From a virus: a stretch of 28,529 nucleotides of DNA. Below are positions 2,484-22,476 of the stretch, piece by piece. Both the position numbers and the translations under genes were made by a program. The notes beneath the pieces are model-generated. The model was not told the origin of the DNA and did not search any database. It saw only the letters and a list, made by a program, of their open reading frames with translations. The DNA lies in IMG/VR virus record IMGVR_UViG_3300021197_000466, positions 1 to 28,529 of that record, one strand, 5' to 3'. Position 1 is the stretch's first letter, and every line of letters begins with the position of its first letter.

Positions 2484-4374
2484 AGCTTAGGCACTCCCCT
2501 TCTTCAAGATTGATTCTTGGTATTTTAATGTTAACATTCTCTGTATTTCTAGCTGCTGTAGAGCGGAGGTAATACATAGATTTGAGTTTGTTAGCTCCTG
2601 CCCAATGCACACTATTAACATATTCCAAATACTCATCATGTACCTCCTGTTCTGCTGTGGCTGCTGGTGGATTAAAAAACAAGTTAACTGACTGTGCTTG
2701 ACATACATACTTCTGACGCTGATATGCGTGCTCTATGATCCATATCTGATTCAGTTCAGGCGCAGTCTTAAATACATCTTTCTCATCTTCAGTAAGTCCA
2801 TCAAGCTCTGCCACAGAACCTTCAGCAGCTGCAATAGCTTTCCAAGTCTTTTCATTGTTCATCTTTTTAGATTCTAATAACTCTGTAAGATATTTATTTT
2901 TTACTTTAAAAGAACCTGTTAACGTCTTGTGCGTAAATACGTTAGCCCTCGTAGGCTCAATAGAAGGAGACGTTCCACCACATATAATACTGCTACTAGC
3001 GTTAGGGGCAACAGCAAGCAAGTGAGAATTCCTCCTAGAACTACCAGCCATATCAGGTGCTGTCCCACGACTTGCGCCCAAGCTAATACTAGTTTCTTCA
3101 GCCCGTTCTTTGATGTGTTTAAATGCTCTATTGTTGAAGCTTGAGGCGTACATTCCCTCAAAAGGGATTCCATTACGTTGTAAGTAACTATGAAAGCCCA
3201 TCGCTCCAAGGCCAATCGCACGTTCTCTATATGCACTATAAGCGGCTCTTTTAAAACCTTCTTTACCTTCTTGTACAGTGAAGTCTTCATACTTAGCTCC
3301 GTATGGTTTTCTATTATCTGCGTTTCTTTCAATACGACCACAAGCATGTTCAATAAAATGTTCTATGATATTATCAAGCATTGTTATTAAGTCTTGAATA
3401 AATTTCTCATTATCTTTCCACTCATCAAAGTATTCTAAGTTAACGCTAGACAAACAACATACAGCGGTACGCTCTTTATTTGTAGGTAATGTTATCTCTG
3501 AACATAAATTACTTTGTTGTACTTTTAAACCTATTTCTTTTTGTAATTCAGGAAGTGCTTCATTACACCTATCCATGTTTACAATATATGGTTCACCTGT
3601 TTCTGCTCTAGTGTGTAGCAACTGCCACCATAGATCTCTAGCTGATACAGTTTGAATAGCTTGTTGTGTTTTAGGATCTATTAATCTCCACTCTTCATCA
3701 TTTTTTACACGACTAAGAAAGGCATCACTAATGTTAACACCATTGTGTAGATTAAGACATTTACGGTTAAGATCTCCACCAGTGGTCTTTCGCATAGCAA
3801 TAAACTCTTCAATCTCTGGATGGCTAATATCCATATATGCTGCATAACTACCTCTTCTTGTAATACCCTGATTGAAAGCTAACATTTGACTATCAACTAC
3901 ATGCATGAAAGGGATAGATCCAGTAGAACGACTACCGTTACGAGTAGAGACACCGTTACTACGAACTTGTCCCCAATAGCCTCCGATACCTCCTCCTGAA
4001 CTTGATAGCCAGATATTCTCATCATAGTGAGAAGAAAGACCATCTCTTGAATCAGGAACGTAGTTGAGGAAGCAACTGATAGGTAAGCCCCTAGTCGTTC
4101 CCCCGTTAGAAAGTATAGGAGTGCTGAACATAAACCAATTATGGCTGCTGTAGTCGTAAAGCCTTTGAGCCATAGACCAATCAGTATACCCTTTATATGT
4201 TGCCCCATAAATACTAGCCCTTGCGTAAGCTTCCTGTGCATGTGTTTCACCTGTGTCAAAGTATCTGTCTTTTAAAGTTTCTAAAGAAAAATCATTTAGT
4301 TTTTCTTCACGGTCATAATCAATCTGAATCCCTAGATAGTCTTGCTTCCCAATCTTTAATGTCGTTAATGTCAT
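2473..4374 (-). CDS. nrdA: Ribonucleoside-diphosphate reductase alpha subunit (class I, R1)
   Basis: This is the catalytic large subunit of class I ribonucleotide reductase, 633 residues. C101 (PISCF) and C306 or C307 (AVCCLSS) correspond to the redox-active pair; NLCSE at 289-293 holds the thiyl cysteine C291 with N289 and E293. Y601-Y602 match the radical-transfer tyrosines, and C628-x2-C631 form the C-terminal shuttle cysteines reduced by thioredoxin or glutaredoxin. The glycine-rich SSSGGGIGGYWGQVR block at about 124-138 is typical. The family is usually about 750 residues; the N-terminal ATP-cone that switches the enzyme off with dATP is missing, as in many phage enzymes. The start at ATG 4374 has AAGGG upstream and lies inside the preceding 58-aa gene. 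Confidence 0.96.
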   Translation of the reverse strand: MTLTTLKIGKQDYLGIQIDYDREEKLNDFSLETLKDRYFDTGETHAQEAYARASIYGATYKGYTDWSMAQRLYDYSSHNWFMFSTPILSNGGTTRGLPISCFLNYVPDSRDGLSSHYDENIWLSSSGGGIGGYWGQVRSNGVSTRNGSRSTGSIPFMHVVDSQMLAFNQGITRRGSYAAYMDISHPEIEEFIAMRKTTGGDLNRKCLNLHNGVNISDAFLSRVKNDEEWRLIDPKTQQAIQTVSARDLWWQLLHTRAETGEPYIVNMDRCNEALPELQKEIGLKVQQSNLCSEITLPTNKERTAVCCLSSVNLEYFDEWKDNEKFIQDLITMLDNIIEHFIEHACGRIERNADNRKPYGAKYEDFTVQEGKEGFKRAAYSAYRERAIGLGAMGFHSYLQRNGIPFEGMYASSFNNRAFKHIKERAEETSISLGASRGTAPDMAGSSRRNSHLLAVAPNASSSIICGGTSPSIEPTRANVFTHKTLTGSFKVKNKYLTELLESKKMNNEKTWKAIAAAEGSVAELDGLTEDEKDVFKTAPELNQIWIIEHAYQRQKYVCQAQSVNLFFNPPAATAEQEVHDEYLEYVNSVHWAGANKLKSMYYLRSTAARNTENVNIKIPRINLEEGECLSCEG

Positions 4375-16893: not shown

Positions 16894-18550
16894 TAATTAC
16901 TTGACAGATGAAGAAGGTTCTTTTGTTTTAAAGAAAGATGGTACTCCTAAAAAGAAAGCAGGAAGACCTAAAGGTTCTACATCTCAATATAATTATCATA
17001 GTGAAGTAAAAGCTAAGATACAAGCAAGAAGATCTGTATCAAAGCAAAAGAAAGATATAAAGCATTTAACAAATAAGTTAAATAATAAGAAGACAAGATT
17101 AAAAAATAAAGAAGAAGTCTTTAAAAAGCTTGACAACATTAGTAATAACAAAGTTGTTGAAGAAGATATTCTAGATGACTTACCAGAGTCTGTTAAAAAA
17201 CATTTAGAAGAAACTAATCAAGATGTTATTTTTAGAGCTAATGAAGGGCCACAGACAGACTTCTTAGCAGCATCTGAAACAGATGTATTGTATGGTGGTG
17301 CAGCAGGGGGTGGTAAGTCCTATGCTATGCTCGTAGATCCCCTTAGGTTCGCTCACAGGGCTGCTCATAGGGCGTTGATACTTAGACGCTCCATGCCTGA
17401 ACTAAGGGAACTAATTGATAAGTCTAGGGAGTTATATCCAAAGGCTTTTCCCGGCTGTAAGTTTAGAGAAGTAGAAAAGATTTGGACGTTTCCAAGTGGA
17501 GCTAAGTTAGAGTTTGGGTTCCTTGAAAGAGATGCAGATGTATACAGGTATCAAGGTCAAGCCTATAGTTGGATTGGTTTTGATGAGATTACTCACCTTA
17601 ATACAGAGTTCTCTTGGAACTATCTAGCATCACGACTGCGTACTACAGACTCTGAAATTACGCCCTACATGCGTTGTACAGCTAACCCCGGTGGTGCTGG
17701 TGCGACATGGGTAAAGAAGCGTTATGTGAACCCATCCCCGCCTAATGAGAGCTTCACAGGCAAAGATGGTTTGACACGAAGATTCATACCCGCAAGGTTA
17801 GAAGATAATCCTTACCTAGCTACAGATGGTAGATACGAGCAAATGCTTAAAGCTCTACCAGAAGTACAACGTAGACAGTTACTAGAAGGTAACTGGGATA
17901 TTACAGAAGGTGCAGCCTTTACAGAGTTTGATGTAATGGTGCATGTTGTTACTCCTTTTGAAATACCTATAGGTTGGGAAAGATTAAAGGGGATTGACTA
18001 TGGTTATGCTTCTGAAAGTTCTTGTATTTGGGGTTGTGTTGATCCCTCTGATGGTACATTAATTATATACAGAGAGTTATACCGTAAAGGTTTAACAGGT
18101 GAGATGTTAGCTCAAATGATTACTAACATGGAGCTAGAAGATCCTTATTCAGTGCAAGGCGTACTAGATACCGCAGCATGGAACAGAACAGGTACAACAG
18201 GCCCTACAGTTGGAGAAACTCTTCAACGTGCGGGGCATAAGCTGCGTAGAGCAGACAAAAACAGAATACAAGGTAAGATTCAAATCCACGAATACTTGAG
18301 AGTTCAACCAAGTGGCAGACCTAAGATACAAATATTTAATAGCTGCCCAAACTTGATCAGAGAGCTTCAAAGTATTCCTCTGGATAAATCTAACCCAGAA
18401 GATGTAGATACACATGCGCCTGACCACGCATACGATGCTTTAAGATACTTAATTATGTCAAGACCTAAAGTCAATGACATCTTTAGTCAGTTTAGAAACA
18501 TGCGTATGGAACAGGCTTATACACCCGTTGATTCAGATTTTGGATACTGA
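16856..18550 (+). CDS. Terminase large subunit (TerL)
   Basis: A 564-residue packaging motor and nuclease. Walker A GGAAGGGKS is at 147-155, Walker B SWIGFDE ends at D243-E244, and motif III TANP is at 275-278. The C-terminal RNase H-like nuclease has D381 (GIDYGYA), D438 (LDTAAW) and D523/D527 (PDHAYDALRY). The first 130 residues are an unusual basic, coiled extension with a GRPKGS AT-hook-like motif (36-41) and many Lys/Asn residues, perhaps for DNA or portal contact. It starts at ATG 16856 inside the upstream gene with no clear ribosome site, so translation is probably coupled. Confidence 0.96.
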   Translation: MAEEQKDWELHPNNYLTDEEGSFVLKKDGTPKKKAGRPKGSTSQYNYHSEVKAKIQARRSVSKQKKDIKHLTNKLNNKKTRLKNKEEVFKKLDNISNNKVVEEDILDDLPESVKKHLEETNQDVIFRANEGPQTDFLAASETDVLYGGAAGGGKSYAMLVDPLRFAHRAAHRALILRRSMPELRELIDKSRELYPKAFPGCKFREVEKIWTFPSGAKLEFGFLERDADVYRYQGQAYSWIGFDEITHLNTEFSWNYLASRLRTTDSEITPYMRCTANPGGAGATWVKKRYVNPSPPNESFTGKDGLTRRFIPARLEDNPYLATDGRYEQMLKALPEVQRRQLLEGNWDITEGAAFTEFDVMVHVVTPFEIPIGWERLKGIDYGYASESSCIWGCVDPSDGTLIIYRELYRKGLTGEMLAQMITNMELEDPYSVQGVLDTAAWNRTGTTGPTVGETLQRAGHKLRRADKNRIQGKIQIHEYLRVQPSGRPKIQIFNSCPNLIRELQSIPLDKSNPEDVDTHAPDHAYDALRYLIMSRPKVNDIFSQFRNMRMEQAYTPVDSDFGY

Positions 18551-18551
18551 T

Positions 18552-18917
18552 ATGAAAAGAACAAAATATAATAATGGTGGCTTATACACTTCTTATTCAA
18601 AAGGTGTTTTTGGTTTAGAAGGAAATGCTGGGGGTAATCAAAAACAAAGAAATGTTTCTGCTACAGCAAGTGTACAAGGTAAAGGTTTTAAAGCTTCTGC
18701 AAGTAGGGGAGTAGACAATTTAGCAGGTAAAAGCACTAACTATAGTTTACAAAAACAATTACCTAATAGATCTTCTGTAGCTGTCCAAACAAATAAATAC
18801 AATACTAGTGCTTCTTATCATAAACAAACTAAAGGTGGCACTCAGTTACATTTTGGTTTAAATAAAAATGCTCAAGGTACTTTAGGTGCAAGCATGAGTT
18901 TTTCTAAACCTTTATAA
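18552..18917 (+). CDS. Hypothetical small Gly/Ser/Asn-rich protein, 121 aa
   Basis: From ATG 18552, one base after the TerL stop, the protein has 121 residues. It has many short alternating stretches (SATASVQGKGFKASASRG, NTSASYHKQTKGGTQLHFGL, GTLGASMSFSK), which suggest beta strands in a repeated sheet or barrel. No signal peptide is seen. I recall comparable proteins between TerL and portal in uncultured marine phages. A longer frame from 18474 would run through TerL and is rejected. The role is unknown; a virion-associated function is inferred from position. Confidence 0.72.
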   Translation: MKRTKYNNGGLYTSYSKGVFGLEGNAGGNQKQRNVSATASVQGKGFKASASRGVDNLAGKSTNYSLQKQLPNRSSVAVQTNKYNTSASYHKQTKGGTQLHFGLNKNAQGTLGASMSFSKPL

Positions 18918-18928
18918 ACGGTAAATCT

Positions 18929-21100
18929 ATGTCAGAAAATAATTTAACAGCCAATGAACTTTACTTTAATGAAGTAGAGGGAGAGCAAGGTATAGAGCTT
19001 ACTCTAGATGAGCAGCTTCAAAATAACCTTGTAGGGCTTATTAATGATCGTTATGTTTCTGCTAAGACTGCTAGAGACTTAGATGAGACACGGTGGCTTA
19101 CAGCGTATCACAACTACCGTGGTCTTTATGGTAAGAACATTAGATTCAGAGAGTCTGAAAAGTCTAGGATCTTTGTTAAAGTTACTAAGACTAAAGTACT
19201 AGCAGCTTTTGGACAACTTGTAGATGTTGTGTTTGGTGCTAATAAGTTTCCTATCGGTATCAGTGAAACTAAAGTACCTGAAGGTGTTTCAACATACGCT
19301 CATTTAAATCCACAAGCACCGGGAATTGAAACCTCTCAAGAAGCTCCTAGTGAAGAAGAAGAAGTAGTTACAGAAAATCCTTTTGATGTTGGTTATGAAG
19401 GAGATGGTAAAACTTTAAAGGCTGGTGCTACTTATGGTACTGGTAAGTTTGAAGATCTTCTTCTTGATAAAAAAGCAGAAGAAAATGATATGCTTATTGA
19501 AGGGCCTTCACCAGACCCTCAAGTAATAGAAATTAGTCCTGCACAAAAAGCTGCAAGACGTATGGAAAAATTAATACATGACCAAATAGAAGAATCTAAT
19601 GGTGCTAGTGAGTTAAGGAACTCATTGTTTGAAGCATCTTTATTTGGTACAGGTATTGTTAAGGGGCCTTTCAATTTTAATAAAACGCTACATAGATGGG
19701 AAGAAGGAGAGGATGGCGAACGTACTTATTCTCCTGTTGATGTGCGTGTCCCTCGTTTGGAGTTCGTTAGTATATGGGATTTCTTTCCTGATCCTAATGC
19801 AACTAATATGGAAGAAGCAGAGTACTCATTCCATAGACATCGAATGAATCGTACACAGCTTCGCAGTCTTGGTAAGCTTCCTTACTTTGATAAAGATGCT
19901 ATACGAGAATGCTTAAATGATGGCCCTAACTATGTTGAAGAAGATTACGAACAAGAGCTAAAAGATGATAGTCGTAATGATGAGTATGGTGCCTCTCAAT
20001 ATGAAGTATTAGAGTATTGGGGTGTAATGGATGCAGAGTACTGCCGACAGGTAGGTATGGATATTCCTGAAGAAGTAGATGACTTAGATGAAGTACAGAT
20101 CAACGCTTGGATTTGTAACGGTAGAATGCTTCGTAGTGTAGTTAATCCATTTACTCCTTTCCGTATTCCTTACCATGCTTTCTGCTATGAAAAAAACCCA
20201 TACAGCTTTTTTGGTATTGGTGTAGCTGAAAACATGGATGACTCTCAAAAGATTATGAACGGTCATGCACGTATGGCTATTGACAACTTAGCCCTATCAG
20301 GCTCCGTAATCTTTGATGTAGATGAGACTGCCCTTGTGGGTGGTCAGTCAATGGAGATATATCCCGGTAAAGTATTCCGTAGGCAAGCAGGTGTACCCGG
20401 AACAGCTATTAATGGCTTAAAGTTTCCTAACACTACCAATGAAAACATGCAGATGTTTGATAAGTTCAGACAGCTTGCAGACGAACAAACAGGCATACCT
20501 TCGTACAGTCACGGTCAAACAGGCGTACAGAGCATGACTCGTACTGCTTCTGGTATGTCTATGTTGCTTGGTGCAGCATCTTTGAACATTAAAACTGTTA
20601 TTAAGAATCTTGATGACTTCCTTCTAAAGCCTTTAGGTGATGCTTATTTCCAGTGGAATATGCAGTTCTTAGAGTCTAAGTTAGGTGTTGTAGGTGATTT
20701 AGAAGTAAAAGCTACGGGTACGAACAGTCTGATGCAGAAAGAAGTAAGGTCACAAAGACTTACAATGTTCCTTCAGACAGCAGCTAACCCTGCCGTTGCA
20801 CCGTTTATTAAAATGAACAAGCTAATTAGTGAACTTGCTTACAGCTTGGATCTAGACCCAGATGAACTGATGAATGATCCAGAAGAAGCAGCAATGATGG
20901 CTCAAATTATAGGAATGGCAAACAATGCTGGACAAGTCCCTAGCCAAGAAGCTGGCCCCGTTGACCAAGGACAAGCTCCAATGGGAGGCCCTGAAGGAGT
21001 ATCTGGACAGCCTCAAGACCTTGGAGCTACAGGTACTGGTGGCGGCAACATCGGAACTGGAAATGTTCCGCAGTCAGGGGAAGCTGAATTCTCTGGCTAG
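18929..21100 (+). CDS. Portal protein (podovirus type)
   Basis: A 723-residue protein of the size and pattern of podovirus portals: an N-terminal helical region (RWLTAYHNYRGLYGKNIRFR), long charged insertions (about 110-200), and a helical body (PYSFFGIGVAENMDDSQKIM; GIPSYSHGQTGVQSMTRTAS). Portals form the dodecameric ring through which DNA enters the capsid. It directly follows TerL and one small gene, as usual. The last 58 residues are Gly/Pro/Gln-rich and probably disordered; the same bases are read in another frame by the next gene. The ribosome site before ATG 18929 is weak (CGGTAA). Confidence 0.92.
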   Translation: MSENNLTANELYFNEVEGEQGIELTLDEQLQNNLVGLINDRYVSAKTARDLDETRWLTAYHNYRGLYGKNIRFRESEKSRIFVKVTKTKVLAAFGQLVDVVFGANKFPIGISETKVPEGVSTYAHLNPQAPGIETSQEAPSEEEEVVTENPFDVGYEGDGKTLKAGATYGTGKFEDLLLDKKAEENDMLIEGPSPDPQVIEISPAQKAARRMEKLIHDQIEESNGASELRNSLFEASLFGTGIVKGPFNFNKTLHRWEEGEDGERTYSPVDVRVPRLEFVSIWDFFPDPNATNMEEAEYSFHRHRMNRTQLRSLGKLPYFDKDAIRECLNDGPNYVEEDYEQELKDDSRNDEYGASQYEVLEYWGVMDAEYCRQVGMDIPEEVDDLDEVQINAWICNGRMLRSVVNPFTPFRIPYHAFCYEKNPYSFFGIGVAENMDDSQKIMNGHARMAIDNLALSGSVIFDVDETALVGGQSMEIYPGKVFRRQAGVPGTAINGLKFPNTTNENMQMFDKFRQLADEQTGIPSYSHGQTGVQSMTRTASGMSMLLGAASLNIKTVIKNLDDFLLKPLGDAYFQWNMQFLESKLGVVGDLEVKATGTNSLMQKEVRSQRLTMFLQTAANPAVAPFIKMNKLISELAYSLDLDPDELMNDPEEAAMMAQIIGMANNAGQVPSQEAGPVDQGQAPMGGPEGVSGQPQDLGATGTGGGNIGTGNVPQSGEAEFSG

Positions 21101-21152
21101 GATATTAGAACTACCTTTAGTAGTAGACGAAGCATTAAATAGGACAGAATAA
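20925..21152 (+). CDS. Overprinted small helical protein, 75 aa
   Basis: A 75-residue frame starts at ATG 20925 inside the portal gene (+2 frame relative to it) and continues 52 bases past the portal stop to TAA at 21150-21152. It is charged and helical: LAPLTKDKLQWEALKEYLDS, then LELQVLVAATSELEMFRSQG and LNSLARILELP. I recall similar small proteins with a Trp-containing helix and a FRSQGK pattern after portal genes in podophages. In this segment it uses many G/C-ending codons, unlike the rest of the genome, while the portal reading is low-complexity. It ends one base before the next ATG, as expected of a real gene. Confidence 0.75.
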   Translation: MLDKSLAKKLAPLTKDKLQWEALKEYLDSLKTLELQVLVAATSELEMFRSQGKLNSLARILELPLVVDEALNRTE

Positions 21153-21153
21153 A

Positions 21154-22476
21154 ATGGCAAGCACACTTTTACTAGATGATTTTAACGAAAGATCAAAAAT
21201 GACAGAAAAAAAATATAAGCAGAAATTAAGATCTCTTATTGGAGGAGATTCTTATCAAGATGCTGTAGATGATATGGTTGAAGCTGAAGGTGGTAAGCTT
21301 ACTAATACTGTAAGTCATCAAGGTAAAAGCCCTGAAAAATATCAACAAGACGTAGATAGAATGGTTGAAAGAGGTGCTCAGTTAAGAAAGCGTCAAAGTA
21401 AAAAAGATAATGATAAAATGCTTAGAGAAGGTGATCCTAGGCAAACATATGAAAAAGGTGGTTCTCTAATGGTTCCTAGAGAACAATACGGTGTAGGTAC
21501 TTTAGTTAAAGGAGCTAAAAAAGCTTTTGATAAAGCTTTAAAAGCTAGTAAATCTTTTTCAGAAGAAGCTTATCCCGGTGAAGCAGGTGATATTAGAGAT
21601 ATAGAAGAGTTTGAAAAAATATTAAGTACTCCTAATTCAGACGCTTTATATTTTAGTAAAGAAAAATTAAATGAGTTAAAAAATGAAGTAGGTGCTCAAG
21701 ATGCATACGCAGAAATGCTTGGCGAGTTTGTTGCTATACGCTCTCAAGATGATCGTATTATTAAACAAGCTACAGAATTAGGATATAACAAAGATAAAAT
21801 TAAAAATATCTTAACAGGTAAAAAATCAGATATTGAAGCTTTAGATGATGCACATTTTAATTTAATAGAAAAAAGATATGAAGAAGCGCAAATTGAAAGT
21901 TTAGGGGATGCTCCCGGACGTAGAGATTCCAGAGCAGAAGGCTCTCTTATGATTCCAGAAGAAGGTATGCCAGTAGACACATACGATAACATCCCTCCAG
22001 AAGAGATGGATGAAGCAATGGCTTCACAGCTTCCAGACGATGACATGGAAGATGAATATTTAGATTATGTAATAGGTGAATCTTTAGATGATTCAGAACA
22101 ACAATATTTAGCACAGGCATTACAAAATGATCCACAACTAGGAAACATTTTAGATAAAGTAATGACTGTAGCGTCAGAGTTTTCGGGTGCTGGCGAAGTT
22201 GACGGCCCCGGAACTGGTGTATCAGACTCTATCCCCGCTCGTTTGAGTGATGGAGAGTTTGTTATTACCAAGAAAGCAACCGACCAAATAGGCGCAGACA
22301 ATCTCCAAGTAATGATGGATGAAGCTGAACGTGCCTATGATGGCGGTTATCAAATGAAGGCTATTGGCGGCTATATGGAAGAAGACCCAGAAGAGCAAGA
22401 TTCACCCCTCTCTCAGACAGACGAGGAAATCAAGAAGCTTATGATGGGTGCCAATAAGATGCCTAGCCTTCGATAA
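21154..22476 (+). CDS. Hypothetical virion-associated protein, 440 aa
   Basis: A 440-residue acidic protein. The C-terminal part carries a motif, GPGTGVSDSIPARLSDGEFV (351-370) followed by ITKKATDQIGADNLQ, that I recall from many marine phage proteins encoded near portal and capsid genes; its function is not known. The motif GSLM[VI]P appears twice (103-108, 263-268). The stretch between them is more AT-rich and Lys-rich, and could be a later insertion. The region after the second motif is strongly acidic (MPVDTYDNIPPEEMDEAMAS and on). A structural or internal virion role is inferred from place only. Confidence 0.8.
   Translation: MASTLLLDDFNERSKMTEKKYKQKLRSLIGGDSYQDAVDDMVEAEGGKLTNTVSHQGKSPEKYQQDVDRMVERGAQLRKRQSKKDNDKMLREGDPRQTYEKGGSLMVPREQYGVGTLVKGAKKAFDKALKASKSFSEEAYPGEAGDIRDIEEFEKILSTPNSDALYFSKEKLNELKNEVGAQDAYAEMLGEFVAIRSQDDRIIKQATELGYNKDKIKNILTGKKSDIEALDDAHFNLIEKRYEEAQIESLGDAPGRRDSRAEGSLMIPEEGMPVDTYDNIPPEEMDEAMASQLPDDDMEDEYLDYVIGESLDDSEQQYLAQALQNDPQLGNILDKVMTVASEFSGAGEVDGPGTGVSDSIPARLSDGEFVITKKATDQIGADNLQVMMDEAERAYDGGYQMKAIGGYMEEDPEEQDSPLSQTDEEIKKLMMGANKMPSLR

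Follow-up and report, generated by a model that had tools for sequence, protein, structure and literature searches.

A small gene for a protein of 75 residues lies across the last 176 bases of the portal gene in the 28.5-kb virus record analysed here (the whole stretch is hereafter called the window), and judged from the sequences of its relatives it appears to be a genuine, hidden and conserved dual-coding gene of pelagiphage-type marine phages. We consider it very likely (probability about 0.87) that this gene is a true member of an all-helical protein family whose gene immediately follows that of the portal in podoviruses of the HMO-2011 type and their relatives and, in the pelagiphage branch, overlaps the portal gene by 173-224 nt, the same DNA encoding the disordered tail of the portal protein. 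An earlier note on this DNA had proposed an overprinted gene of this size that ends just before the next ATG, and both proposals were borne out by the coordinates (Table 1). The note had placed the gene in the +2 frame, which is corrected here to a +1 shift from the portal frame, as in 443 of 443 loci of the long-overlap type.

Table 1. Positions of the overlapping genes and associated features in the window
Feature	Position	Strand	Description
Portal protein gene	18929..21100	+	723 aa; PHROG 332, E 1e-79; Pfam SU10_portal, E 5e-27
In-frame stop TAG	20910..20912	+	four codons 5' of the small-gene ATG
AGGA	20911..20914	+	possible Shine-Dalgarno sequence, 10 nt 5' of the small-gene ATG
Small gene	20925..21152	+	75 aa; ATG at 20925, TAA at 21150-21152; predicted all-helical
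Dual-coding stretch	20925..21100	+	176 nt; small frame +1 relative to portal frame; dual-frame constraint
Linker part of the overlap	20925..21028	+	portal frame near neutral, small frame constrained
Portal C-terminal motif TGTGGGNIGTGNVPQSGEAEFSG	21029..21097	+	both frames constrained; small-frame reading is the ATSELEMFRSQGKLNSL core
Next gene	21154..22476	+	440 aa; ATG one base past the small-gene stop

The nearest named relatives of the window portal are those of the pelagiphages HTVC115P (61% identity), HTVC103P, HTVC104P and HTVC033P, of Roseobacter phages and of HMO-2011. Two other genes of the neighbourhood deserve comment. The ORF at 18474-18917, listed with a 77-nt overlap of the terminase gene end, probably begins at a later ATG near 18552 (MKRTKYNNGG...), and the overlap may therefore not be real; a PHROG search with this ORF gave no match. 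In the 440-aa protein encoded after the small gene, about residues 328-400 resemble tape-measure and endolysin PHROGs (E down to 1.7e-8), which is odd for a podovirus gene at that place.

Homologues that stand alone after portal genes, for which the earlier note had proposed a search, were found in several phage groups beyond the pelagiphage branch, as genes of 60-80 residues directly 3' of the portal gene in HMO-2011 and in Roseobacter, Rhizobium, Vibrio and Pseudoalteromonas phages. The overlapped and stand-alone small proteins match with an hhalign probability of 99% and with hmmsearch scores of up to 58 bits, and the likeness exceeds what the portal sequence forces, since 40 of 40 loci beat all 60 of their synonymous redraws. 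The motifs W..L..YL and RxQG are common to the window protein and the stand-alone members, and W20, Q51, G52 and L63 are near-invariant in the family. By sequence similarity, by these key residues and by a position on the same strand directly after or over the portal end, the window gene thus belongs with the HMO-2011 gp50 type. Homologous proteins are encoded at the same place in HMO-2011 (gp50), CRP-212 (gp39), phiM6 (gene 11), RHph_N3_19 (gene 108), CHOED (gene 090) and Slicky01; the stand-alone member carries the annotation 'hypothetical' in HMO-2011, most CRP phages, phiM6, RHph_N3_19, CHOED, MQM1 and Slicky01, and is present and unannotated in CRP-1 and CRP-345. Unlike the window gene, the stand-alone members share no more than about 98 nt with the portal gene, and they lie after the portal motif instead of containing it. 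The equivalents in HTVC033P, HTVC103P, HTVC104P and HTVC115P, in contrast, show no essential difference from the window: they have the same overlapped layout (about 191-200 nt) and the same phase between the portal motif and the small-gene core. GenBank holds no CDS for the gene in these four phages, which are all of the pelagiphage isolates of this type, in agreement with the suspicion that automated calls may reject it.

The helical nature of the protein, also claimed earlier, is supported by AlphaFold, which from the window and IMG/VR loci as inputs predicts a four-helix fold with a pLDDT of 96.4. The best match in a library of predicted viral folds is a 70-aa protein (TM 0.85-0.90, 32% identity), which, judged by its length, may be the Rhizobium phage homologue. 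Searches for a named family in Pfam, PHROGs, NCBIfam and the PDB, the last by both sequence and fold, gave scattered weak matches only, none of them convincing. A more distant member lies after the portal gene of Pseudomonas phage Rollin, with a weak but significant score of 27.5 bits; it overlaps the portal end by 76 nt, and the Rollin portal is about 26% identical and has a tail without the Gly-rich motif. De novo birth of the gene by overprinting on the portal, under which the family should be absent outside the overlapped clade, was considered and rejected, as stand-alone homologues occur in diverged phages and a homologue occurs in Rollin.

In Rollin (locus L582, 3725-3940) a homologue of 71 residues seems to have been truncated to the annotated 44-residue CDS. 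In HMO-2011 (L087, 3479-3694), where gp50 is annotated from 3518, homology places the start at the ATG at 3479; the protein then has 71 residues and its gene overlaps the portal gene by 74 nt. Aeromonas phage 1233 (L585, 1501-1731) carries an unannotated family member after its portal gene. In CRP-3 (L097) the annotation places one further small ORF, an unrelated one (3525-3689), between the portal gene and the family member; it is the sole such insertion seen.

The place of the gene between the portal gene and the downstream structural genes is strictly fixed across widely diverged phages, and because of this gene order we tentatively suggest, at somewhat less than even odds, that the small protein is a head-assembly factor working with the portal or the scaffold. 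A gene of the same position and size is known from SU10, whose portal names the Pfam family matched by the window portal: its gp7, of 78 aa, lies between portal and scaffold. It shows no detectable sequence similarity to the small protein and was rejected as a homologue (hhalign probability 0.1%, scores no better than shuffles); the comparison is an analogy and not a test of the role of the small protein. In the mass-spectrometry table published for SU10, the gp7 product is not listed among the late proteins (PMC4281155). The small protein might instead act on the host or on late gene expression, its position serving only for timing. The fact that virion or assembly evidence exists for no family member would fit such a role, but the strict fixation of its place in phages so diverged speaks against it, and we regard it as less likely than not.

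Selection in the two frames was assessed from independent pairs of closely related sequences: each substitution was classed according to what it changes in either frame, and the portal gene just upstream served as control. This is a simple count over pairs, with transitions given an assumed weight of 2, and it was used instead of position-specific variability without codon alignment, for which the controls were unreliable. In the upstream control, the values for portal-synonymous changes lie between 51 and 72 (arbitrary units) irrespective of their effect in the +1 frame. In the overlap, the portal-synonymous changes that are nonsynonymous in the small frame fall to 17.8 (51.2 in the control) and those creating small-frame stops to 9.9 (71.8 in the control), a seven-fold avoidance. 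Changes that are nonsynonymous in the portal and synonymous in the small gene reach 34.6 in the overlap versus 5.0 in the upstream portal, and among all portal-nonsynonymous changes the frequency of those silent in the small frame is about 2.6 times that of the small-nonsynonymous ones. Over the whole overlap, omega_small is 0.37 [0.33-0.41] and omega_portal 0.80 [0.70-0.90], with similar values in the subclade of the window (0.39 and 0.82, respectively); for the genes where they do not overlap, the values are 0.20-0.22 for the small gene and 0.27-0.33 for the portal tail, both from few pairs. Both frames are thus open and under purifying selection, the small frame more strongly, as befits an overprinted pair.

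The earlier note had regarded the portal tail as a passenger of the constraint on the small gene. This stands for the linker half of the overlap, where omega_portal is 1.10 [0.94-1.26] and omega_small 0.37 [0.32-0.42] (class A pairs), and it is contradicted in the last ~23 residues, the terminal motif, where omega_portal is 0.48 [0.39-0.57] and omega_small 0.33. In the overlap, selection on the portal frame falls mainly on this Gly-rich motif, which was found in 431 of 443 overlapped portals and in 106 of 119 other portals. Because the motif is constrained, and is kept also in portals where it is not overlapped, the tail is only partly a passenger; by these counts the claim holds for about half of the overlap. 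The strong form of the claim, with selection acting on the small gene only, could draw on the neutral linker and on the excess of portal-nonsynonymous, small-synonymous changes, but it is refuted for the motif part and is improbable as an account of the whole overlap. Constraint on both frames, in unequal measure, is likewise found in phiX174-type and other virus overprinted genes (PMC8227390); the present case differs from the phiX174-type overlaps in that the same two proteins also occur as a separated pair in close relatives.

The earlier note had also argued for the second frame from the local use of codons ending in G or C. This argument proved to be an artefact, as third codon positions of the small frame are first codon positions of the portal frame. 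GC3 of the small frame in the overlap is high (0.78 in the window, 0.69 across the overlapped class) because it equals the portal GC1, which is raised by Gly, Pro, Gln, Ala and Glu codons. The portal-frame GC3 in the overlap is 0.27, identical to that of the portal core, and GC3 is 0.18 in the unique 3' end of the small gene in the window and 0.28 in separated copies of the small gene from the same phage group.

With regard to expression, translation of the small protein would start independently at the internal ATG, given its own AUG, a nearby AGGA and the in-frame stop upstream. Each of the 443 overlapped loci has an ATG of its own for the small protein, 412 have an in-frame stop 3-4 codons 5' of it, and in 328 an AGGA, GGAG or GAGG precedes the start, although the AGGA is only suggestive as a Shine-Dalgarno sequence since conserved portal codons also constrain it. 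The next gene may then be reached by translational coupling, which is possible because its ATG follows one base after the small-gene stop; the two lie close together in most relatives. A literature search returned no transcript, ribosome-profiling or proteomic evidence for the small protein. That the second frame is instead a frameshift extension, providing an alternative portal tail and no separate protein, is very unlikely: the frame does run until just before the next gene, and programmed slippage is known in some phage structural genes, such as gp9-gp10 as described for SU10 (PMC4281155), but the in-frame stop so close to the ATG argues against a fusion, the ATG is universal among the overlapped loci, and relatives encode the same protein as a separate gene.

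A bare open frame of this length over the portal codons of the window is not rare by chance (P about 0.16 in synonymous redraws), and it is therefore conservation that exceeds chance: 442 of 442 long-overlap loci are open in the small frame, against about 87 expected. As a query with the small protein would favour intact copies, a second search was based on the portal core only, and all 80 loci found in this way contain an intact ORF of 71-85 residues with its ATG 172-217 nt 5' of the portal stop. A broken second frame beside a conserved portal tail, which the earlier note had named as grounds for refutation, was seen in none of these 80 relatives. In all, the survey covered 581 loci (436 distinct sequences once identical stretches were removed), of which 562 have the small gene; a further 18 are cut off, and in a single locus, L483, the gene is not intact. 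It is thus present in 562 of 563 evaluable loci. The portal of the single exception has a second frame break elsewhere, and this locus is therefore probably a poor-quality contig. The idea that there is no gene here, and that Gly/Pro/Gln-rich portal codons leave the frame open as a side effect, has only the redraw probability in its favour and is refuted by the conservation in both searches, the stand-alone homologues, the avoidance of small-frame stops and the confidently predicted fold, which leave it a negligible chance.

The lengths of overlap are bimodal across the loci, being either at most 98 nt or 173-224 nt, with none between. In the long-overlap class, the DNA for the portal motif GGGNIGTGxVPxxGExxFSG also encodes, in the small frame, the ATSEQEMYRSQGKLxSL core. 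The other class has the same motif in its portals and, after it, a small gene of its own. As motif and small protein are present in both classes, both proteins are homologous between them, but their placement on the DNA differs. On the portal tree, built, as were the others, with FastTree, the long-overlap class forms one branch with separated forms nested inside, although some nodes are weak. In the clearest case, that of the separated form L293, identity to the overlapped locus L344 is 97.8% along 2.1 kb, as far as the linker, and identity to L346 is 99.8% along the 1.9 kb that begin at the end of the small gene; between the two matches L293, its genes being separated, has about 307 nt, and L346, its genes being overlapped, about 125 nt. 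On the small-protein tree, L293 groups inside the overlapped forms (local support 0.90-0.97), which favours loss of the overlap in that lineage, spread as a cassette, with the reservation that the L293 cassette is a single metagenome contig and a chimeric assembly is possible. Separated forms of the L298 type are found in several contigs, with portal cores 97-98% identical to those of overlapped relatives. From these sequence comparisons, it seems that lineages can switch between the two forms.

With regard to direction, the separated state may be the older one, as its wider distribution, which extends to diverged phages, would suggest. A passage from separated to overlapped genes is, however, hard without convergence, since both proteins must fit one stretch, while separating an overlapped pair by duplication is mechanically simple. 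Two traces of a duplication were sought, the portal motif in the off-frame of stand-alone small genes (mean rank 0.40) and, in the +1 frame of portal tails from stand-alone loci, the small protein (mean rank 0.53). Neither did better than synonymous redraws, and no double copy of the small gene was found among the loci surveyed, so that a duplication is conjectural. A history in which the overlapping pair formed and later came apart, probably via duplication and loss of one frame per copy, with both states exchanged between phages by recombination, is thus a speculative one, which we consider less likely than not.

A conserved overlap of 173-224 nt is unusual in a dsDNA phage, given that the median length of viral +1 overlaps is only 14 nt (PMC8903798). 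With this finding, one of the most abundant groups of marine phages gains a conserved gene of the structural module, which annotation has missed in its overlapped form. Further, the overlapped and side-by-side relatives represent a natural experiment on how overlapping genes arise and separate: as both versions exist in near-identical backgrounds, the costs and benefits of gene overlap could be measured directly, and not just argued from models.
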